A stretch of 64,000 nt of DNA, from assembly GCF_001669775.1 (NCBI RefSeq), contig NZ_LXWK01000016.1:310001-374000 (forward strand), written 5' to 3'. Below the pieces are notes generated by a model that was not told the DNA's origin, searched no databases, and saw only the letters and a list, made by a program, of their open reading frames with translations. Source of the DNA: Rheinheimera sp. SA_1. GTDB taxonomy: Bacteria; Pseudomonadota; Gammaproteobacteria; Enterobacterales; Alteromonadaceae. Shown here in pieces: positions 41,520-51,166 of the stretch. How positions within the stretch are numbered: position 1 is the first letter of the stretch; the number at the start of each line of letters is the position of its first letter. The translations under genes and the position numbers were made by a program.

Positions 41520-43823
41520 TTAACTCTTCAGTGCCATTCCTTCCAGTTCACCTGGCTTAAAACTATCGACGCTAATCGCGTCAAAGCGCAGTGCGTTCAT
41601 TTCGTCCAACTGCTTAGCTTCGCTGTCGGTTAATACTTGCAGTTCCAGTGCTTTGGCGATTGTTTGCTGCAGTGGTAACTTGCGGGCAATTTTGCCTTCT
41701 TTTTGCGCAGCGAAAATTTTCTTCATCAGTGGCTGTGCATTGTGCACGGCGACAAAGGCTTGTTCCATTAAACCTGTAGGATCGTCTTTGCCTTCACCGA
41801 TATAACACAAATGCGTTAAACGGTCGCGGATCACGCTTGGCTTTAACAAGGCATCTGAAATTTGCATCGACACATCATCGTCCGGCATCTGGTAACCAAT
41901 ACCAAACGGGAACACCAGCGTTTTTAGCAGACCCGCAACAAAGCGGTTCGGGAAGTTGCTGAAGAAACCGGCAAAAGCACGGCCAATTTCATACAAATTG
42001 CGTTGCACGCTGTAATGCACGAATGGTAAATCTGCCACCTGACGGCCATTATCTTCATAAAACTTCAGCACGGCAGAAGCGATATAAAGATGACTTAACA
42101 CGTCACCTAACCTTGCCGACAACATTTCTTTGCGTTTTAAATCACCACCCAACATCAGCATGGAAAAGTCCGCGCTTAATGCTAAGGCTTTACTCATCCG
42201 GCTTAATTGTTTGTAGTATTTGGCTGTTTCGCCGCCCACCGGTGAGCCGTTAAAGGCGCCGACAGTTAAGCCCTGAAACAACGCGCCAAAGGTATTACCG
42301 AGCGCAAAACCTACGTGTTTTAATAGCAACTCGTCAAACTGCAGCAAACCAGCCTGTACATCCGGATTGGCAGCGGCTTCTAATTCTTTTAATACGTATG
42401 GATGGCAACGGGTGGCACCCTGACCAAAAATCATCAGGTTCCGGGTTAGAATGTTGGCGCCTTCCACCGTAATAGAAATCGGAACGCCCATATAGCCATG
42501 CGCCAGATAGTTTTTCGGACCACATTGAATGGCACGGCCGGCATGAATATCAAACGAGTCATTCAGTAAGGTACGCGACATTTCCGTCATGTGATATTTG
42601 GCAATGGCAGTCACGACTGATGGGCTGAGATTTAAGTCAATCGCGCCAGCGGTCATCACCCGCATCGCTTCCAGGCTATAGGTTAAACCACCGATGCGGC
42701 CCAACGATTCCTGAACCCCTTCAAATTTACCAATCGACATGCCGAACTGCTGACGCACATAAGCATAAGCGCCAGTCATCCGCGTGGCTAAATGGCCGGT
42801 AGCAGTGCCAAGCGCTGGCAGCGAAATACCACGGCCTGCCGATAAACATTCCACCAGCATCCGCCAACCACGACCAGCAAACGACGGTCCACCGATGATC
42901 CAATCCAGCGGAATAAACACATCTTCACCGTAGGTAGTACCGTTCATAAACGCCATATTCATTGGGAAATGACGGTCACCAATCTGCACGCCTGGGTGTG
43001 AAGTTGGGATCAAAGCACAAGTGATCCCCAGCTCTTCTTTGTCACCCATCAGTTTATCCGGATCCGACAGTTTAAACGCCAGACCCAGTACAGTGGCAAC
43101 TGGTGCCAAAGTGATATAACGTTTGTCCCAGTTCAGCCGGATGCCTAATACTTCGTTACCTTCAAACAAACCTTTGCAAACCACGCCGGTATCCGGAATA
43201 CCACCAGCGTCAGAACCTGCTTCCGGGCCAGTTAAAGCAAAACATGGCACTTCAGTACCAGCCGCCAAGCCTGGTAACCAACGATCTTTTTGCTCCTGAG
43301 TACCGTAATGCATCAACAATTCGCCAGGGCCTAACGAGTTAGGTACCATCACGGTAACAGCGGCAGTTAAGCTACGGGTCGCGATACGGGAAACGATGGT
43401 TGAGTTGGCAATGGCAGAAAATTCACGACCGCCAAACGACTTTGGAATAATCATCGCGAAAAAGCCATTGCCTTTGATGTAATCCCAAACTGGTTGCGGT
43501 AAGTCGCGGGTTTCATTGACTATTTTATAGTCGTCGAGCATTTTTAACAGCGTTTCGACTTCGTTGTCTAAAAACGCCTGCTCTTCGGCTGACAATTGTG
43601 GTTTTGGAATGGCATGCAATTTCGCCCAGTCCGGGTTGCCTTTGAATAAATCGCCATCCCACCACACATCGCCTGCTTCCATCGCTTCACGCTCAGTGTC
43701 TGACAGCGGTGGCAGAATTTTCTTAAAGATGCCAAAAATTGGTTTGGTCACCAGGTTGCGCCGGATATCCGGCACCGCCAGGATGACCACCACAGCGATG
43801 ACCAGTAAAAATAAAATAAACAT
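41520..43823 (-). CDS. fadE: Acyl-CoA dehydrogenase FadE
   Basis: A 767-aa FAD-dependent acyl-CoA dehydrogenase performing the first step of fatty-acid beta-oxidation; E. coli FadE has 814 aa. There is an N-terminal membrane helix (MFILFLLVIAVVVILAV), so it is probably bound to the inner membrane. GNGFFAMIIPKSFGGREFSA, PCFALTGPEAGSDAGGIPD and TYGEDVFIPLDWIIGGPSFA are family motifs, as are QFGMSIGKFEGVQESLGRIG and NILTRNLMIFGQGATRCHPY. The last 250 residues are the extra FadE C-terminal region. The PsrA-like regulator lies 95 bp upstream on the same strand, which fits transcriptional control by fatty acids. Confidence 0.95.
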   Translation of the reverse strand: MFILFLLVIAVVVILAVPDIRRNLVTKPIFGIFKKILPPLSDTEREAMEAGDVWWDGDLFKGNPDWAKLHAIPKPQLSAEEQAFLDNEVETLLKMLDDYKIVNETRDLPQPVWDYIKGNGFFAMIIPKSFGGREFSAIANSTIVSRIATRSLTAAVTVMVPNSLGPGELLMHYGTQEQKDRWLPGLAAGTEVPCFALTGPEAGSDAGGIPDTGVVCKGLFEGNEVLGIRLNWDKRYITLAPVATVLGLAFKLSDPDKLMGDKEELGITCALIPTSHPGVQIGDRHFPMNMAFMNGTTYGEDVFIPLDWIIGGPSFAGRGWRMLVECLSAGRGISLPALGTATGHLATRMTGAYAYVRQQFGMSIGKFEGVQESLGRIGGLTYSLEAMRVMTAGAIDLNLSPSVVTAIAKYHMTEMSRTLLNDSFDIHAGRAIQCGPKNYLAHGYMGVPISITVEGANILTRNLMIFGQGATRCHPYVLKELEAAANPDVQAGLLQFDELLLKHVGFALGNTFGALFQGLTVGAFNGSPVGGETAKYYKQLSRMSKALALSADFSMLMLGGDLKRKEMLSARLGDVLSHLYIASAVLKFYEDNGRQVADLPFVHYSVQRNLYEIGRAFAGFFSNFPNRFVAGLLKTLVFPFGIGYQMPDDDVSMQISDALLKPSVIRDRLTHLCYIGEGKDDPTGLMEQAFVAVHNAQPLMKKIFAAQKEGKIARKLPLQQTIAKALELQVLTDSEAKQLDEMNALRFDAISVDSFKPGELEGMALKS

Positions 43824-43869
43824 AAGGTTGGTCCTTTTTCAGAGATTACAGTCAGACAAGCAATAATTT

Positions 43870-43903
43870 ATATACCCGTCATCCCTGAAGATTTGGGGTA
43901 TAT
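43870..43903. repeat. Remnant of the dispersed palindromic element, copy 3
   Basis: ATATACCCGTCATCCCTGAA, then GATTTGGGGTATAT. This is the left end of the element seen at 10220 and 38395 joined directly to its right terminus GGGTATAT, with the middle missing. It lies between the regulator stop and the fadE start. Confidence 0.65.
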
Positions 43904-43918
43904 GTGAACAACAACGGA

Positions 43919-44563
43919 TTAATTCGTTGTTGTTATAGGTGCAGCAATCCCGGCCGCGAGATAAGGGATCAATCTTTTGATCACCCCATCAATCTCCACA
44001 ATTTCATTAAAATCAGCGGCGGCGATATCTTTCAGTGCTTCGTTTGACGCCATGGTAAAGACGATGGTGCCAAGTGAAAAATGCAACCGCCAGAAGATTT
44101 CACTGGCTGGCAGCGCCGGACAACTTTGCTGTACCAACAGCACAAATTTATCCAGCGTCCGGCCATAATGATGATTAAAAAACCAGCGCAAGTGCCCTTG
44201 CACATCGGTATAACCACGGCCTAACAGCTGTAAAAACAACGTAGTACCGCGGTTTTGTATTTTGTTAAGTTCGAGCAAAGGGATCACAAACACCGACAAC
44301 ACGTTACTGAGTTCGTTGTGTTGCTGTGACGCCAATAACCGGGTGAATTCCTGATCCAGCCTTGGCATCAACAGCGACAAATACCGCTGCAGCACCGCCT
44401 GGATCAGTTCTTTTTTAGAACCGAAATGATAATTGACCGACGCCAGATTCACTTCCGCCATACTGGTAATTTGCCGTAACGAGGTAGCAGAAAAACCAGT
44501 TTCGGCGAATAAACGCTCAGCGGCATCCAGAATTTTTTGTTGGGTATTTTGTTTACTGGTCAT
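43919..44563 (-). CDS. psrA: TetR-family fatty-acid regulator, PsrA-like
   Basis: A 214-aa TetR-type repressor. The helix-turn-helix is in residues about 10-55: QKILDAAERLFAETGFSATS, then LRQITSMAEVNLASVNYHFG, then SKKELIQAVLQRYLSLLMPR. Both this and the ligand-binding half (GRGYTDVQGHLRWFFNHHYG, SEIFWRLHFSLGTIVFTMAS) closely follow Pseudomonas PsrA, which is released from DNA by long-chain fatty acids. fadE directly downstream supports this. The frame also allows a GTG start at 44575 (MPTD lead); neither has a good ribosome-binding site and I prefer ATG 44563. A PsrA-like palindrome precedes the gene, indicating autoregulation. Confidence 0.85.
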   Translation of the reverse strand: MTSKQNTQQKILDAAERLFAETGFSATSLRQITSMAEVNLASVNYHFGSKKELIQAVLQRYLSLLMPRLDQEFTRLLASQQHNELSNVLSVFVIPLLELNKIQNRGTTLFLQLLGRGYTDVQGHLRWFFNHHYGRTLDKFVLLVQQSCPALPASEIFWRLHFSLGTIVFTMASNEALKDIAAADFNEIVEIDGVIKRLIPYLAAGIAAPITTTN

Positions 44564-44576
44564 ATCAGTCGGCACA

Positions 44577-44607
44577 TTTAAACAAGTGTTTGAAATGTAC
44601 GTTTGAA
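44577..44607. promoter_or_regulatory. Putative PsrA operator
   Basis: TTTAAACAAGTGTTTGAAA (44577-44595) is a near-palindrome of the PsrA type (CAAAC-N-GTTTG), and an additional half-site GTTTGAA lies at 44601-44607. It is just before the start of the PsrA-like gene. Between it and the promoter at 44773 the region (44608-44772) shows no gene. Confidence 0.55.
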
Positions 44608-44772
44608 TCTAACTGAAGTCAATATAGCTCAGTAAAATTGCCGCGGAAATTCCACCTGTTGTTTTTTGGAAAGTAATCGCTGTGCGCGCCGTATTTAACA
44701 ATAACGGACCACGAAAACATAAACATAAATCTGATTAAAATCAGACAGCTAAAACACCTTAGAAAAATTCAC

Positions 44773-44801
44773 TTGACAACCTAAAGTAAAACAGACAATT
44801 T
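44773..44801 (+). promoter_or_regulatory. Sigma-70 promoter of the leader/TonB receptor transcript
   Basis: TTGACA at 44773-44778 and CAATTT at 44796-44801 are separated by 17 bases. Transcription would begin near 44808, about 75 bases before the ribosome-binding site of the 24-codon leader and about 410 bases before the receptor start. Confidence 0.6.
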
Positions 44802-44891
44802 TGCGTAGTGTCTTACAGCCAAATATTCTGCTGGCGGACAACAATCCCCAACCTGCGATTTAACTGAAAAAACTGTCATAAGGAGAAGAAG

Positions 44892-44966
44892 ATGCAAAAG
44901 CTTGCTGCCAACCTTAGCTCTTATTATTACTCTCCTTATTACCTGTCCGAGTGGTTTAATAATTAG
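44892..44966 (+). CDS. 24-aa Tyr-rich candidate leader peptide
   Basis: ATG at 44892 is preceded by AAGGAGAAGAAG, one of the best ribosome-binding sites in the window. The frame encodes 24 residues with the core SSYYYSPYYLSEWFNN and stops at TAG 44964-44966. Five Tyr fall within seven codons (TAT TAT TAC TCT CCT TAT TAC), plus one Trp and one Phe shortly after. A stable hairpin starts six bases after the stop, and the TonB receptor starts 254 bases later. This is the layout of an amino-acid-responsive leader (as in pheA or trp), but coupled to an outer-membrane receptor. Alternatives are a small functional peptide or a chance frame. No family is recognised. Confidence 0.5.
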   Translation: MQKLAANLSSYYYSPYYLSEWFNN

Positions 44967-44972
44967 CCACCC

Positions 44973-44993
44973 CCCTTTGCCTGATGCAGAGGG
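44973..44993 (+). promoter_or_regulatory. Hairpin immediately after the leader peptide
   Basis: CCCTTTGC (44973-44980) pairs with GCAGAGGG (44986-44993) through eight pairs, one of them G-U, with loop CTGAT. No T-tract follows, so by itself it is not a terminator; a ribosome stalled in the leader could alter it. The 227 bases from 44994 to 45220 are a long untranslated stretch with a TTTTTTT run near 45083 and no clear strong terminator stem. Confidence 0.5.
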
Positions 44994-45220
44994 TTCTGGA
45001 AATTTAACTTCCATCAACATCCTTGCTCAACGCCTGATTTGTTTGCGCAGCTGATTTCTTTGCGTAAATGGCGTGTGTGCTGTTTTTTTGCGATCACCCT
45101 GAGCGTGTCAACTTAGGATCCAAAAAAACGCTGGATATTGCTCCCTCTGCGTCTTATTCGATTGTTTGCTAAATCACCCAAGATTGCCGAAAAGGCAACG
45201 AATAAGTCCTGAGGAATGTT

Positions 45221-47854
45221 ATGAAATTTGCAAAAATGAAGCACAAGCCTGATCTACACAATAAGCAATACAACACGTTATTTGCAGCAACATTGTTAGC
45301 TATGGCTGGTATACAACCGGTTCATGCCCAACAAACTGCACCAACCGAAGAAGAGCTAAAAGCCAAAAGTATCGAAAAAATTGAAGTCACCGGCTCACGC
45401 TTAAAAGGCGTGGACATGGAAGGAGCCAACCCGCTGCAGGTGTTCACCAAAGACGACCTGATCAAAAAAGGCTACGACAGTGTGTCGTCTTTTTTGAAAG
45501 ATTTACCGCAAGCCTCCAGTGCCGGTACTTTTACCGACAATGGTAACGTCGCAGGTTCCGACGGCACGCCCCCTGGTGCAGCTGGTGTTAGTTTGCGCGG
45601 CCTCGGTTCAAGCTCAACGCTGGTACTGGTGAATGGTCGTCGGGTCGCCGTTGATTCGTTTTCCAATGGCTTTGACTCGTTCGTCAACGTCAATGCCATC
45701 CCAATGTCAGCGATTGAACGGGTGGAAGTATTAACTGACGGCGCATCGTCGGTGTATGGCTCTGATGCGATCGCCGGTGTAATTAACTTTATTTTGCGTA
45801 AAGATTTCGAAGGTCATGAATTGTCAGCCATGTACGGTGATGATACCGCTGACAGCGATTTTGGTCGCACCAACCTTACCTATGCCGGTGGTTTTGCCAC
45901 AGAAAACAGCAATACAACGCTGGTGGTCGATTACTATGATCGTGAAAAACTGATGAACAGCGACCGCCCAATTGACGTCACTTTTAAATCATCGACCCGG
46001 GTGACCATTGATGGCAAAGATTTCGCAGAGCCATGGTGCGGCAGCAACAAGAGCAACGGCGGCACCCGCTGTCAGTACGACTATGTCATTGAACGCGCTA
46101 TACAGCCCGATACCAAAAACGTTGGCGCCACCCTGAACCACATCTACCGCATGGGCAATAACAAAGAGTTTTTTGCCGAAGCGATGTACCAGGCCAATAC
46201 CGGCGGCGCTTATGATTCTGCCGGGTCATTTGACTACACCTTAAACGGCAACTTTGCGACCATTCCGGCATGGGCTAAAGCAGAAGATGCCAAAAACGGC
46301 ACCATCAATAATATCCGCGTTCGTTCACGTTATCCGGAAATCCGCACACAGGAATACGATGCGACCAGTTTTCGCCTCTTAGCGGGACTTCGCGGTGAAC
46401 TAAATGACTGGGCGTGGGAAACTGCGGCAACTGTCGGTAAATCCGAAAACGAAGTGATTCACACCTCTGGCTATTTCAGCGTCGATCGGATGCGCGCGGC
46501 AGCGCTCAACGGCACCTTTAATCCGTTTAACTTAGGAAGGGATACCAGTGCGTCGGTCGTTGCTGGGTTACGTGAAGCCGCACCACGGGTTGGCGAATCA
46601 GACGTGTTCTCCTGGGATTTTAATATTGCCGGGGATCTTTACGATTTAGACAACGGATCCATTAAAGCAGTATTTGGTGGTGAATATCGCAGTGAAGATA
46701 TATTCGACCGCCCTGCTCTGATCGCCCAAAGTGGCGGTGTGACCACCTTAGGCGCCAGTGATGCTGCTGCAGATCGTACCCAATACGCATTTTATGGTGA
46801 ATTTAATATTCCATTGTCTGAAAAACTCGACGCTATTACCGCCATCCGCTATGACCACTACAGCGATTTTGGTGGTGATGCCAATCCGAAAGTGTCACTG
46901 CGCTACCGCGCAACAGATGATTTGATTTTACGCGCCAGCTGGAGTACCGGTTTTCGTGCTCCATCATTATCAGAACTTGGTGCTGGCACGTCTTTAGGTT
47001 CGAATTATATCGATTGTGGTGCCGGAACGCCGTTTGGCGCTTTGTGTGGTGAGTTTGGCAACCCAACCGGTGAGTTGGAATATGATCAGGAAACTTTAGG
47101 TAACAAAGGTCTGGACGCTGAAAATTCTGAAGCGATGAACATCGGTTTATCCTGGAACTTGACCAACGATTTAAATATGACCGTCGATTACTGGCGTTAC
47201 GAACACACCGATATTGTCGATGTTGATGCCAACACCACACTCAAAGCCTGTATTGATGGTTCAGCGCCAAAAGTCACTTCAGAAGCTGCTTTAGGTGGCG
47301 CTTTTGGTTGTGTCATGGATGCAGGTAACGACTTAGTGTTCTTACGCACCGGCTTCTTTAACGTCGGCGCACAGGAAACGGATGGTGTTGATATCAAAAT
47401 CGACTATAAGTTCAATACAGGCTTTGGCGACTTTAAACCTTACTTCGCTGCAACCCGCACCTTAAGTTACGAGCGTCAATTAACCAAAGACGATCCGGCC
47501 GAAGATTTGCTTGGTAAACTCAGTGGTGCCAGCGAAATCGCCCGTCCGGAATTTGTCGCCGATTCAGGTCTGGACTGGTCACTTAACGACTGGAATGCCA
47601 GTTTGTCCGCGCACTACACCAGTTCGTTGGGCGATGGTGATTTCAAATTTGATAACGACACCGTCGACAGTTGGCTGACTTTAAGCGCCAGCTTGGGGTA
47701 TCACTTCAACGACAACAACAAAGTGCAATTTACCGTGCGCAATCTGACCGATAAAGAGCCGCCATACGCCTCCTCGCCAACCAATGGCTACGCCAGTTCA
47801 GTGCATGATTGGCTGGGTCGCGTCTGGACTTTACGCTACACCTACAAGTTTTAA
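45221..47854 (+). CDS. TonB-dependent receptor (next to secreted protease)
   Basis: An 877-aa outer-membrane receptor. The signal peptide ends at VHA (about residue 36). The plug (about 50-175) has IEKIEVTGSRLKGVDMEGAN, FLKDLPQASSAGTF, GAAGVSLRGLGSSSTLVLVN, and VEVLTDGASSVYGSDAIAGV. The rest is a beta-barrel ending in LGRVWTLRYTYKF, with the C-terminal Phe used for outer-membrane insertion. This receptor type often lies next to secreted proteases and takes up peptides in marine gammaproteobacteria; the convergent S8 protease supports that, but the ligand is inferred. AGGAAT precedes the ATG. A long 5' untranslated region with a Tyr-rich leader lies upstream. Confidence 0.92.
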   Translation: MKFAKMKHKPDLHNKQYNTLFAATLLAMAGIQPVHAQQTAPTEEELKAKSIEKIEVTGSRLKGVDMEGANPLQVFTKDDLIKKGYDSVSSFLKDLPQASSAGTFTDNGNVAGSDGTPPGAAGVSLRGLGSSSTLVLVNGRRVAVDSFSNGFDSFVNVNAIPMSAIERVEVLTDGASSVYGSDAIAGVINFILRKDFEGHELSAMYGDDTADSDFGRTNLTYAGGFATENSNTTLVVDYYDREKLMNSDRPIDVTFKSSTRVTIDGKDFAEPWCGSNKSNGGTRCQYDYVIERAIQPDTKNVGATLNHIYRMGNNKEFFAEAMYQANTGGAYDSAGSFDYTLNGNFATIPAWAKAEDAKNGTINNIRVRSRYPEIRTQEYDATSFRLLAGLRGELNDWAWETAATVGKSENEVIHTSGYFSVDRMRAAALNGTFNPFNLGRDTSASVVAGLREAAPRVGESDVFSWDFNIAGDLYDLDNGSIKAVFGGEYRSEDIFDRPALIAQSGGVTTLGASDAAADRTQYAFYGEFNIPLSEKLDAITAIRYDHYSDFGGDANPKVSLRYRATDDLILRASWSTGFRAPSLSELGAGTSLGSNYIDCGAGTPFGALCGEFGNPTGELEYDQETLGNKGLDAENSEAMNIGLSWNLTNDLNMTVDYWRYEHTDIVDVDANTTLKACIDGSAPKVTSEAALGGAFGCVMDAGNDLVFLRTGFFNVGAQETDGVDIKIDYKFNTGFGDFKPYFAATRTLSYERQLTKDDPAEDLLGKLSGASEIARPEFVADSGLDWSLNDWNASLSAHYTSSLGDGDFKFDNDTVDSWLTLSASLGYHFNDNNKVQFTVRNLTDKEPPYASSPTNGYASSVHDWLGRVWTLRYTYKF

Positions 47855-48002: not shown

Positions 48003-51000
48003 TTAGTTTGCAGCAACGACAACAGGTTTTACGCGGGTAACTTCTGGTAACGGATCGTTGGTTTCGACACGTACCAAGGTAGTACCCTGCACTGAACCCG
48101 CAACGATATAACGGATAGCCGCCATATAACGTTTACCGGTTGCCAGACCTGACCAGCTCACCGCTGTGGTCGCTGAACCACCGATCGTCGCAGAACCTGG
48201 CAGCACCAGTTTGAAATTGCCGCCTTTATCAGCAGTAGTGACAGCCCAGGTTGACAAATTAAAGTCAGATTGGGTGCCACTTGCCAGACCATAACCACCT
48301 AAACAGACCTTATAGGTACCTGCTGCAGGCGTCATCAGCTGAACTTCTTCATCAGAACCGGCACGTAAGCTGGTTGCGACAACCGTATTAGCAGAATTCA
48401 TTAATACCATGTCAATGTCGTCCCCACCAGGCATGTTGTGACCGCTGGTTTCTGCATTATAAGTTGCTGCTTTTAATACCAGCGTATTTGCTGGAGCAAC
48501 AACCGTTTGCAACACTGTACCTTTAGCACCGCTTAAACAAGCTGTAGCTAACTGTGCAGAGGTCTCAATTGTACCTGGTGTCGCCTGACCGATGGTCAGA
48601 CTCTTCACAGTCGCAGCTTTTAAGCCGCCCACTTGCGAAGTCATGGCGCCAGCAAAACCAGTGCCAATGGTGTACAGAATGTTGCCTTTCACGTTTTCGC
48701 TATACAACGCACTTGCGGCAGCTAAACCAGTACCTTTAGCAGACACCGGAACACTCACAACTGTGGCACCGTCAGTCCATTTTAAGGAACCAAAAGCCCA
48801 GGTATTTAAAGCTGCACTGGTACGGGTTACCGTTGCAGTGAAGCTTGCTGATTGACCCGGAGCCAATGTCAGAGTTGATGGAACCACATCAATGCTAAAG
48901 CCTGGAATGCTGGATGATGCAGTGTAAGTCGCGGTACCAGTACCAACATGGGTCACGGTACGCGTTACGGTTGTTTTACCTAAAACGTTAGCCAACGTAA
49001 TAGAAGGCAGGTTCAGGTTCACATCAGAGATCTTACCCACTGCATTACAGGTTGACTGTGGGATGCTTGGCAAGCTGATGCTGCACAAATAGCGTGTATA
49101 ATCAACTGGCTGAATGTCATAAACCAGACCAGGTGCCGCTGCTTTGTTCGGTACTACATGACCAGCACCCTGAGCCCAAGGCAACTGACCTGCTGCCTGA
49201 CCTGGCTGCGCATCAGCAAAAGTCATACTACCCGTGGTCATCAGCGCAGATTTAATCATCGCCGGTGTCCAGTTCGGGTATTGTTGTTTTAACAATGCAC
49301 CCAAACCAGCAATATGCGGGCTTGACATCGAAGTGCCCTGCAGGAAATTCCAGGCAGCAGGTGCGGCTGCACCGTTTGCTACTTCATTACGCTGCGCTTC
49401 GTTCAGCGTCGGTGTATAACCCGCCAGGATTTCCACACCAGGTGCTGTTAAATCTGGTTTCAGGATATTTGGATAACCACGGTTTGGACCCCGTGATGAA
49501 AACGCGGCCATAACTGGCGCTGCAACAGTACCCTTTTTGGCAGCAAATTTGCTCATTGCCAGTGTGGCGGCAGGTTCAGCCGCTAAATAGGCTTTAACTG
49601 CATCAGTACTGACTTTGTCGATGTGCACTGCAGGAATGCCATGGTCAATCGACGTGATGGTGTTATTGGTTAACTGAACGTTACCAATCACGATACCAAT
49701 ACCACCGGTTTCTTTCACTGCCTGAGATTTATTCACTAACACATTGCTGCCGCGATCACAAACAACCACTTTGCCAGCAACTTTTAATGGGTCTAACAAG
49801 CTGACACCATCGGCACTACCGAAACATAAAGCTGCATTGGTCAGGTTTGCACCGTCTTTCGCCGCATCACGCGCCAGAATAAAAGTAGAAGCAGCTAAAG
49901 CTGCACCATTTAATGAGCCACCTTCATAAGAAGCACCGTTGCCGAGGATCACATTACCGGCGTTAAAACGGTCGTGCGTTGAAGCGCCTACCGTTGTTAA
50001 CCATGGGCCTAAGTGAGCAACCGCGTTGCCAGGACCACTGTTACCAGCAGATGCTGACACAAATACACCTGCATTCGTCGCGCCGAGGAAAGCAAGTTCC
50101 ACAGCATCATTGACGGAAGTCTGGCTACCGCTGATTGAATAGTTCAGTACATCGACACCGTCTTTTACGGCTTTTTCAATGGCTGCAACGTTATCACCGG
50201 TAAAACAGGAGTTTCTCGGCAGTAATACGTTAGCTGGATCCTGGTAGCTCCAACAGACTTTATAAGCTGCAATACGGGCACGTGGCGCGATACCTGAAGC
50301 TTTGCCCATAGCCACGCCATTCACATTTGACATGACATTGGCATTACCACCGGCAGTGGTCGCAGTGTGAGTACCGTGGCCACCATTATCACGTGGTGAT
50401 TGAAAATCTGACCAGTGCGGGGTATACAAACCTTGTGCTACCACTGAGCGATAGGTTGCATCAAAGAACTGTGCACCAATAAGTTTGTTATTACAGTGAT
50501 TTAAGCTGAAACCTTCGCCAGGCGAACATTCACCTTTCCATTTTGCCGGTGCAGGACCAAACACCTGAGTCGCGCCTAAATCAAAAGTCGGGACGCCATT
50601 GGCATCAACACGATCAGCAAAAGCTGGGTTCTCAGGAGAGACACCACTATCAATAATACCGATGATGATATCTTCACCAGCTGCACCCTGACCACCGGCT
50701 TTTGCCCAAATACCGTCTGCGGCGTCCAGGCTCAGGAAGGCTGGCGTATAGTTGGTCGTCAATTCATGCGGTTCATCAACCTGAATTTGCGCCACACTGC
50801 TGTTTTTCTTCAGCGCGCGAACTTCAGCGTCAGTCAGCATTGCAGTGAAACCGTTAAACACCAGATTAAACTGGTGAATAGCTTCCACTTCAGGCACGGC
50901 TGCTAATACATTTGAATGAACCTGATCTAGGTAACCCAGGTAATTTTGCACTGCAGAAGCATCCACATCGAGTTTCTGACCAGCTGCAGGTTTAGTGGCC

Positions 51001-51146
51001 GCAAAACCAGCTACACCACCAGTGTAAGAAGCAGCAGGCGCTGCGGCCAGTTGCACCACATAAGGACGACGTACTTCTGATGCTTGAGCTGCGAAAGACG
51101 CAGCGAGTACCGCCGCTACAGCGAGCGACATTTGAGATAATTTCAT
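48003..51146 (-). CDS. Secreted S8 (subtilisin-like) serine protease
   Basis: A 1047-aa extracellular protease. Signal peptide MKLSQMSLAVAAVLAASFAA, then an I9-type propeptide (about 28-130: YVVQLAAAPAAS, FNLVFNGFTAMLT). The catalytic triad is D166 (IIGIIDSGVSPENPAF), H257 (NGGHGTHTATTAGG) and S606 (GTSMSSPHIAG). A PA domain is inserted before the Ser motif (KVVVCDRGSNVLVNKSQAVK), as in plant-type subtilases, and a fibronectin-III-like domain follows (TVTRTVTHVGTGTATYTASS). The C-terminal 200 residues look like a pre-peptidase C-terminal domain. A GTG at 51149 could also start the frame; ATG 51146 with AGGA six bases before is better. It is 20 bp downstream of the PEP-CTERM-like gene and convergent with the TonB receptor, suggesting extracellular protein digestion and peptide uptake. 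Confidence 0.95.
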   Translation of the reverse strand: MKLSQMSLAVAAVLAASFAAQASEVRRPYVVQLAAAPAASYTGGVAGFAATKPAAGQKLDVDASAVQNYLGYLDQVHSNVLAAVPEVEAIHQFNLVFNGFTAMLTDAEVRALKKNSSVAQIQVDEPHELTTNYTPAFLSLDAADGIWAKAGGQGAAGEDIIIGIIDSGVSPENPAFADRVDANGVPTFDLGATQVFGPAPAKWKGECSPGEGFSLNHCNNKLIGAQFFDATYRSVVAQGLYTPHWSDFQSPRDNGGHGTHTATTAGGNANVMSNVNGVAMGKASGIAPRARIAAYKVCWSYQDPANVLLPRNSCFTGDNVAAIEKAVKDGVDVLNYSISGSQTSVNDAVELAFLGATNAGVFVSASAGNSGPGNAVAHLGPWLTTVGASTHDRFNAGNVILGNGASYEGGSLNGAALAASTFILARDAAKDGANLTNAALCFGSADGVSLLDPLKVAGKVVVCDRGSNVLVNKSQAVKETGGIGIVIGNVQLTNNTITSIDHGIPAVHIDKVSTDAVKAYLAAEPAATLAMSKFAAKKGTVAAPVMAAFSSRGPNRGYPNILKPDLTAPGVEILAGYTPTLNEAQRNEVANGAAAPAAWNFLQGTSMSSPHIAGLGALLKQQYPNWTPAMIKSALMTTGSMTFADAQPGQAAGQLPWAQGAGHVVPNKAAAPGLVYDIQPVDYTRYLCSISLPSIPQSTCNAVGKISDVNLNLPSITLANVLGKTTVTRTVTHVGTGTATYTASSSIPGFSIDVVPSTLTLAPGQSASFTATVTRTSAALNTWAFGSLKWTDGATVVSVPVSAKGTGLAAASALYSENVKGNILYTIGTGFAGAMTSQVGGLKAATVKSLTIGQATPGTIETSAQLATACLSGAKGTVLQTVVAPANTLVLKAATYNAETSGHNMPGGDDIDMVLMNSANTVVATSLRAGSDEEVQLMTPAAGTYKVCLGGYGLASGTQSDFNLSTWAVTTADKGGNFKLVLPGSATIGGSATTAVSWSGLATGKRYMAAIRYIVAGSVQGTTLVRVETNDPLPEVTRVKPVVVAAN

Positions 51147-51166
51147 CACAGTTCCTTTTTTAATTA

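Follow-up and report, generated by a model that had tools for sequence, protein, structure and literature searches.

Upstream of a gene for a TonB-dependent receptor in Rheinheimera sp. SA_1 lies a frame of only 24 codons, and the question is what so small a frame does there. It was noticed in a stretch of 64,000 nt of this genome, referred to below as the window. The original prediction held that its Tyr run senses Tyr or charged tRNA-Tyr and thereby tunes the scavenging of peptides. The comparison with relatives described here leads to another reading, in which the tiny peptide appears to be a switch for cyanophycin-use genes that works by stalling the ribosome and has not been described before. 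Three copies of a conserved leader peptide, the present one among them, would act in cis in this genome to control the scavenging of cyanophycin via a ligand-dependent arrest that blocks Rho, and to this reading a probability of about 0.55 is assigned.

The Leader Region

The promoter-like site, the 24-codon frame with its Shine-Dalgarno sequence and its Tyr run (five Tyr codons within seven), the 8-bp hairpin six bases past the stop and the gap of 254 nt between the leader stop and the receptor start (45221) had been described before, and each was read again in its place. The elements of the region are as follows.

44773..44801, + strand: promoter-like site TTGACA-N17-CAATTT, read in the sequence (-35 TTGACA at 44773-44778, -10 CAATTT at 44796-44801, 17-nt spacer)
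44880..44885, + strand: Shine-Dalgarno sequence AAGGAG of the leader, read in the sequence
44892..44966, + strand: leader frame MQKLAANLSSYYYSPYYLSEWFNN + UAG, 24 codons (ATG at 44892, TAG at 44964-44966), conserved at the peptide level
44937..44966, + strand: conserved end YYLSEWFNN-stop, the proposed arrest motif, from the alignment of relatives' leaders
44967..44972, + strand: C-rich stretch right behind the stop, belonging to a C>G region that spans the first 78 nt
44973..44993, + strand: 8-bp hairpin CCCTTTGC-CTGAT-GCAGAGGG, beginning six bases past the stop; relatives keep the structure, not the sequence
45221..47854, + strand: TonB-dependent receptor, 877 aa, with Plug and beta-barrel domains; ortholog of cyanophycin-cluster receptors

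The -10 hexamer CAATTT is weak, and the promoter-like site at 44773..44801 was not reported by a generic sigma-70 scan. The same two hexamers were found 5' of 15 of the 152 collected leaders, the window's included. In a search allowing 15-19 nt the spacing was exactly 17 nt in all 15, and all 15 precede a TonB receptor, a count that takes in any similar receptor. An Rfam scan of the window gave no match at the gathering score.

On the opposite strand, genes for a PsrA-type TetR repressor and a FadE-like acyl-CoA dehydrogenase (41520-44575) adjoin the leader; psrA/fadE-like genes, judged by the sequence start, are present at the corresponding place in the relative G019 too. Beyond the receptor, convergent with it on the opposite strand, lies an S8 subtilase of 1048 aa with I9, PA and Fn3-like domains (48003-51149). 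The secreted protease that was said to neighbour the receptor does adjoin it in the window, but at the one ortholog checked (G019) the subtilase is absent and an FTR1-type iron permease follows the orthologous receptor. The protease was rejected as a functional partner on this single ortholog.

A Family of Leaders with a Conserved End

When the window's peptide was searched against 60 genomes, 32 matches were obtained at E<=1 and 29 at E<=0.0021 (own genome counted), and many genomes had two or three places. The remaining three matches, with E values of 0.4-0.97, look like chance; L030 (E 0.41, without the motif) was left out. A pattern scan of named genomes, which imposed Y, [LF], E, W, F, [ND] and UAA or UAG, returned at least 120 stretches. 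Among the matches listed, 79 of 80 pattern-scan stretches carry a leader-like frame; L138, a chance match adjoining gyrase-type genes, was dropped. The genera among the matches listed are Rheinheimera, Alishewanella, Arsukibacterium, Alkalimonas, Pseudoalteromonas, Thalassotalea, Alteromonas and Aeromonas, with Halomonas/Billgrantia/Vreelandella, Microbulbifer, Saccharospirillum and Wenzhouxiangella as further ones. Of 369 genomes drawn from the class as a whole, 93 had a match at E<=1, and only those of the window's genome and G405 were strong; the other matches, the best of which scored 18.6 bits, look like chance.

The leaders share the C-terminal end [YFH]YLSEWF[ND][NE]-stop, and their N-terminal part is variable in sequence and length. 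For the codon comparison, 63 leaders were collected without restriction on the stop codon from protein and HMM searches and region fetches. The script's expression demanded Glu-Trp, a requirement that cost only the chance match L030 in a check of the 58 loci returned by the searches. Leu and Ser of the motif never vary, and each is encoded by all six of its codons across the set; Phe is found in 62 of the 63. The stop is UAG in 55 leaders, UAA in eight and UGA in none. Dereplication reduced these 63 leaders to 31, and a set of 147 to 89, or to 87 when more upstream sequence was required. Pairwise codon differences among the 31 in the seven codons [YF]YLSEWF are 1271 synonymous versus 314 nonsynonymous, where random single changes would be 15% synonymous; for ten codons in the N-terminal half the differences are 1220 synonymous versus 2635 nonsynonymous.

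According to this comparison the frame is a leader that is truly translated, and the object of selection is the end of the peptide, not the Tyr run and not a DNA motif. A short frame 5' of an operon that is selected as a peptide is one mark of a regulatory leader peptide. The translated leader proposed ahead of the TonB receptor is thereby borne out, by conservation at the peptide level in many genera of gammaproteobacteria, where most codon changes are synonymous. As to codon choice, the Glu of the motif is GAG in 61 of 63 leaders, and in all 153 collected frames GAC encodes 81 of the 84 Asp residues at the penultimate position and AAT encodes 31 of 31 final Asn residues. The Shine-Dalgarno sequence is strong in most leaders of the window's receptor type and weak or absent in many others; the many leaders without a clear one count against the best explanation.

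An alignment of relatives had been proposed as a check for a conserved Tyr run with synonymous change, and it upheld the end of the frame but not the Tyr-rich half. Attenuation at Tyr codons, in which uncharged tRNA-Tyr stalls the ribosome in the run, draws on the five Tyr codons in seven of the window's copy and on the fact that 64 of 87 dereplicated leaders have at least two Tyr ahead of their last nine residues (14 have one, nine have none). However, it is the stop-proximal residues, [YFH]YLSEWF[ND][NE]-stop, that are conserved and not the Tyr run, which is missing in the leaders of Aeromonas, Microbulbifer and Billgrantia, and a conserved run of Tyr codons, the mark of such an attenuator, was not found. 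Moreover, a terminator/antiterminator was looked for in the window and none was found, and the downstream pathway is that of Asp-Arg, not Tyr. Sensing of Tyr or tRNA-Tyr is hardly credible on these grounds. Codon-based sensing of Arg is unlikely as well, since 52 of the 87 leaders contain no Arg.

Genes behind the Leader

Cyanophycin is a nitrogen store of cyanobacteria. According to sections of a published account, cyanophycinase frees beta-Asp-Arg, isoaspartyl dipeptidases cleave beta-Asp-Arg, and a known utilisation locus joins genes for cyanophycinase, isoaspartyl dipeptidase and a transporter, as is the case in leader-bearing relatives (PMC10206079).

In several other genera, the leader is followed by a TonB receptor, a YfcC-type carrier and IadA, and a secreted cyanophycinase-like gene is divergent. 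In two representatives, YfcC ('putative basic amino acid antiporter', NF008611) scored 698 and 717 bits against a cut-off of 500, and IadA (beta-aspartyl-peptidase, TIGR01975) 469 and 489 bits against 331. Genes for cyanophycinase, isoaspartyl dipeptidase and transport stand together in relatives, with cyanophycinase matches that are under the TIGR02069 cut-off (102 and 99 bits versus 126.6, E about 1e-28, in the two representatives). One cyanophycinase-like protein was compared with the PDB and matched cyanophycinases of solved structure (E 3e-9). Halomonas-type genera and Aeromonas have an ABC binding protein of the Lys/Arg/Orn type and IadA behind the leader; the binding protein of Aeromonas is over the TIGR01096 cut-off (274.1 versus 256.35), and two of Billgrantia are below it (217.5 versus 256.35). 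The Saccharospirillum leader and a second copy in G048 precede a cyanophycinase-like gene. In an Alteromonadaceae MAG (L127:1547-4321), a cyanophycinase-like gene is flanked by two leaders on opposite strands, which precede a TonB receptor and yfcC, respectively.

The window's receptor is located apart from the remainder of its own genome's cyanophycin cluster. It is 75% identical to the G010 receptor that adjoins a cyanophycinase-like gene and 60% identical to the receptor in the full cluster of G048. As judged from these matches, the leader-linked genes probably serve the use of cyanophycin or beta-Asp-Arg, and of basic amino acids. The control of peptide scavenging that had been suggested thus survives in part: the receptor would be one for a peptide-type nutrient, but the linked genes are those for cyanophycin and beta-Asp-Arg and not for general scavenging.

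The genome of the window holds three leaders before three unlinked units. The second precedes yfcC-iadA; the third, whose start codon is uncertain, ends in YHLSEWFDE and precedes a 464-aa cyanophycinase-like gene (TIGR02069, 63.8 bits). A further iadA adjoins a cyanophycinase-like gene in the same genome (L249:7381-10221), where no leader frame was found. That one genome has leaders on three unlinked units points to a function in cis. Selection on the peptide would also suit a small working protein of the pathway, but separate copies before unlinked units of the same genome, an N-terminal part without fixed sequence or length and an RNA hairpin 3' of the stop all speak against such a protein, which is considered very improbable.

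Association with Cyanophycin Genes

The leader model was applied to 394 genomes drawn from the order and found 47 places in 40 genomes at E<=1.1e-6, two weak matches (E 0.0017 and 0.0039) being set aside. Carriers among the 394 number 69 for iadA, 35 for a long cyanophycinase-like gene below the cut-off and 27 for a cyanophycinase over it. It was found that iadA is present in 39 of 40 leader genomes versus 30 of 354 without a leader (Fisher 9.9e-34), and the long cyanophycinase-like gene in 31 of 40 versus 4 of 354 (Fisher 1.2e-33), p-values that overstate independence as the genomes are related. The over-cut-off cyanophycinase showed no association (2 of 40 versus 25 of 354).

Within the genomes, 43 of the 47 leaders have iadA or a cyanophycinase-like gene nearby, at -3 to +8 kb. 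The four exceptions are the window's copy, its G019 ortholog, a G760 copy before another TonB receptor and a G512 copy at a contig end. Among the matches listed in the pattern scan, a related gene is found in the same stretch for 116 of 120 leaders; a TonB receptor, any similar receptor being counted, comes first in 85 of the 120, a binding protein in 16 and YfcC in seven. Three of the four leaders without a related gene have at most 374 nt of DNA 3' of them; behind the fourth (L176) is a gene that matches the cyanophycinase-like query in the overlapping region L254. Counted against the best explanation, the leader is absent from four genomes with the cyanophycinase-like gene (G650, G776, G050 and G476) and from 30 with iadA. 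Sixteen regions were inspected, namely those four, eight of the 29 other leaderless iadA genomes, two of the window's own genome, one of G003 and the contig end of G512, and a motif frame was found in only two of them (L250 of the own genome, and G512).

These associations bear on an arrest peptide that senses the state of translation or release (e.g., RF1 activity), or stalls constitutively, instead of sensing a cyanophycin product. Such a peptide would be consistent with conserved residues at the stop itself and with an RF1-type stop in 63 of 63 leaders, and the cyanophycin-derived ligands are inferred candidates only. However, a general sensor does not explain why the leader is tied to one pathway both in genomes and in gene order, and it is regarded as quite improbable.

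RNA Features past the Stop Codon

In the 89 dereplicated leaders, the 46 nt past the stop have a mean folding z of -1.69, with 54% below -1.5; in four control windows the mean is -0.24 to -0.37, with 17-20% below -1.5. Stems of at least 6 bp occur in 64 of the 89 leaders, with 62 distinct 5' arms, and 38 begin at most 8 nt from the stop. A stem score of at least 11 is reached by 40 of 89 leaders versus 8 in the downstream control and 7 in shuffles. The structure is weak in some leaders, those of Aeromonas and Saccharospirillum included, which is counted against the best explanation.

Of 87 leaders, 73 have C or A as the first base past the stop and three have U; UAG is followed by C in 40. A UAG-C context with a nearby hairpin may favour readthrough, and programmed readthrough of UAG with the help of these two features was considered. 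The frame past the stop is unconserved, however: it has a mean of 26.2 open codons versus 20.4 in shuffles, closes within 3-10 codons in several leaders and meets UGA after only five codons in the window. Readthrough was rejected on this unconserved frame, and its likelihood is close to negligible.

C makes up 47% of positions +1 to +8, and G 12%. For the first 78 nt, the mean of C minus G is +8.6 points, and the value is positive in 90% of 87 leaders, while the upstream stretch gives +1.4 (p 3.6e-10). The window's own values are +14.1 for the first 78 nt and -5.1 for the next 78 nt, but +7.7 upstream of its leader too, which counts against the best explanation. Regions in which C exceeds G mark Rho-dependent terminators, that of CruR for example, according to parts of PMC9426467. 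No intrinsic terminator was found in 44580-45240, in agreement with the original prediction that no strong one precedes the receptor. A C>G region past the leader together with no intrinsic terminator is the pattern of a Rho attenuator, with the reservation that the window's upstream stretch is likewise C>G; of the suggestion that control is translational or Rho-based rather than classic attenuation, the Rho type fits these features. Since Rho sites are usually unstructured, the hairpin within the region counts against the Rho model.

The main rival is an arrest leader that acts on translation, because the 271-nt stretch from the leader end to the receptor start folds with a z of -3.44. In this version, the stalled ribosome would refold the 5' UTR and free the main gene's ribosome-binding site, with no part for Rho. 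The predicted fold of 44960-45230 pairs the receptor's start region, as a translational switch would have it. However, the gaps between leader and gene vary widely and the C>G bias fits Rho, which makes the translational version unlikely.

Proposed Mechanism

With its conserved peptide end at an RF1-type stop, followed by a C-rich stretch and catabolic genes, the leader suggests the logic of TnaC and SpeFL. In the Rho-dependent model preferred here, a ligand from cyanophycin (beta-Asp-Arg, or Arg released from it) would cause the completed peptide to hold the ribosome at its own stop by a block of RF1-dependent release. The stalled ribosome would shield the C-rich stretch and keep the hairpin open, and the loading of Rho would be prevented. 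Without Rho, transcription would proceed into the gene for the receptor, carrier, dipeptidase or cyanophycinase. When there is no ligand, the ribosome would depart, Rho would load and the transcript would stop ahead of the main gene.

The conserved L, S, E, W and F lie near the presumed stall site, adjoining the stop, as expected of an arrest peptide. The linked genes, which the leader would control, handle beta-Asp-Arg or basic amino acids. The first candidate for the ligand is beta-Asp-Arg, because IadA and basic-amino-acid carriers or binding proteins are the shared partners; Arg and ornithine are alternatives. A more specific proposal is put forward only tentatively: the [FY]YLSEWF[DN][EN]-stop nascent chain and the ribosome might directly recognise the dipeptide beta-Asp-Arg, with the several unlinked units forming one cyanophycin-scavenging regulon and the stop-adjacent hairpin being part of the switch.

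Comparison with Known Leader Peptides

The closest parallels come from leaders described in sections of PMC8429421, PMC7815308 and PMC9426467. TnaC of the E. coli tnaCAB operon is a 24-aa leader before catabolic genes, and the window's leader has the same length; TnaC arrests at the leader stop, where the stalled ribosome blocks a rut site right after it (PMC8429421), and the cyanophycin leader has a conserved end at the stop and then a C-rich stretch. TnaC relies on UGA/RF2 and L-Trp, whereas the cyanophycin leader ends in UAG or UAA and belongs to another sequence family and pathway. Unlike TnaC, it also occurs before several unlinked units per genome and has a hairpin right after the stop. 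The characteristic residues of TnaC are Trp12, Asp16 and Pro24; the leaders of the present family do not end in Pro, and what we take to be a short W-F-N resemblance of the motif to TnaC lies at a different distance from the stop.

SpeFL resembles the cyanophycin leader in being an arrest leader of gammaproteobacteria near arginine metabolism, with L-ornithine as the metabolite sensed; it blocks release by RF1 and acts on Rho binding, as is proposed for the cyanophycin leader (PMC8429421, PMC7815308). Its sequence and operon are different, and its sensing was demonstrated by experiment, whereas the cyanophycin leader is known from sequence comparison. It had been remarked that no leader peptide rich in one amino acid is known on an outer-membrane receptor for peptides. 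A leader on a TonB-transporter operon is, however, already on record: CruR (DUF2946), the uORF of bfrG in Bordetella, heads such an operon and controls it via Rho-dependent termination in a C>G region, as proposed here (PMC9426467). In the parts of that source that describe it, CruR is a protein with CXXC and RAPP motifs and no SEWF motif, copper relieves its arrest, and the pathway is another one. MdtU, the uORF of E. coli mdtJI, is short, has a C-terminus conserved in many genera and involves Rho and the basic metabolite spermidine, but it belongs to an exporter operon and has another sequence (PMC7815308).

In the part of PMC3400609 that concerns Citromicrobium, a TonB transporter is noted adjoining a cyanophycinase gene and no leader is mentioned. 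The words 'leader' and 'TonB' are absent from the main text of PMC10206079. SEWFDE, SEWFNN and YLSEWF did not occur in the literature searched. By titles and abstract starts, no such leader was found among the matches listed for the literature on cyanophycin with leader peptide, arrest, attenuation or uORF, on cyanophycinase with TonB receptor or isoaspartyl dipeptidase, or on TonB receptor with leader or uORF. The kind of control is established; what is new is the sequence family, the pathway, the several units per genome and the stop-adjacent hairpin.

Implications

To our knowledge, few metabolite-sensing arrest peptides have been found, and their small size makes finding them hard. The present family has a short fixed motif at the stop and a clear pathway, and in many genera copies of it stand ahead of several units of a genome, so that the stall site, the ligand and the dependence on Rho can be tested together. 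The leader also marks receptors, carriers and ABC systems that are likely to import cyanophycin fragments. The switch would show how aquatic bacteria sense cyanophycin.
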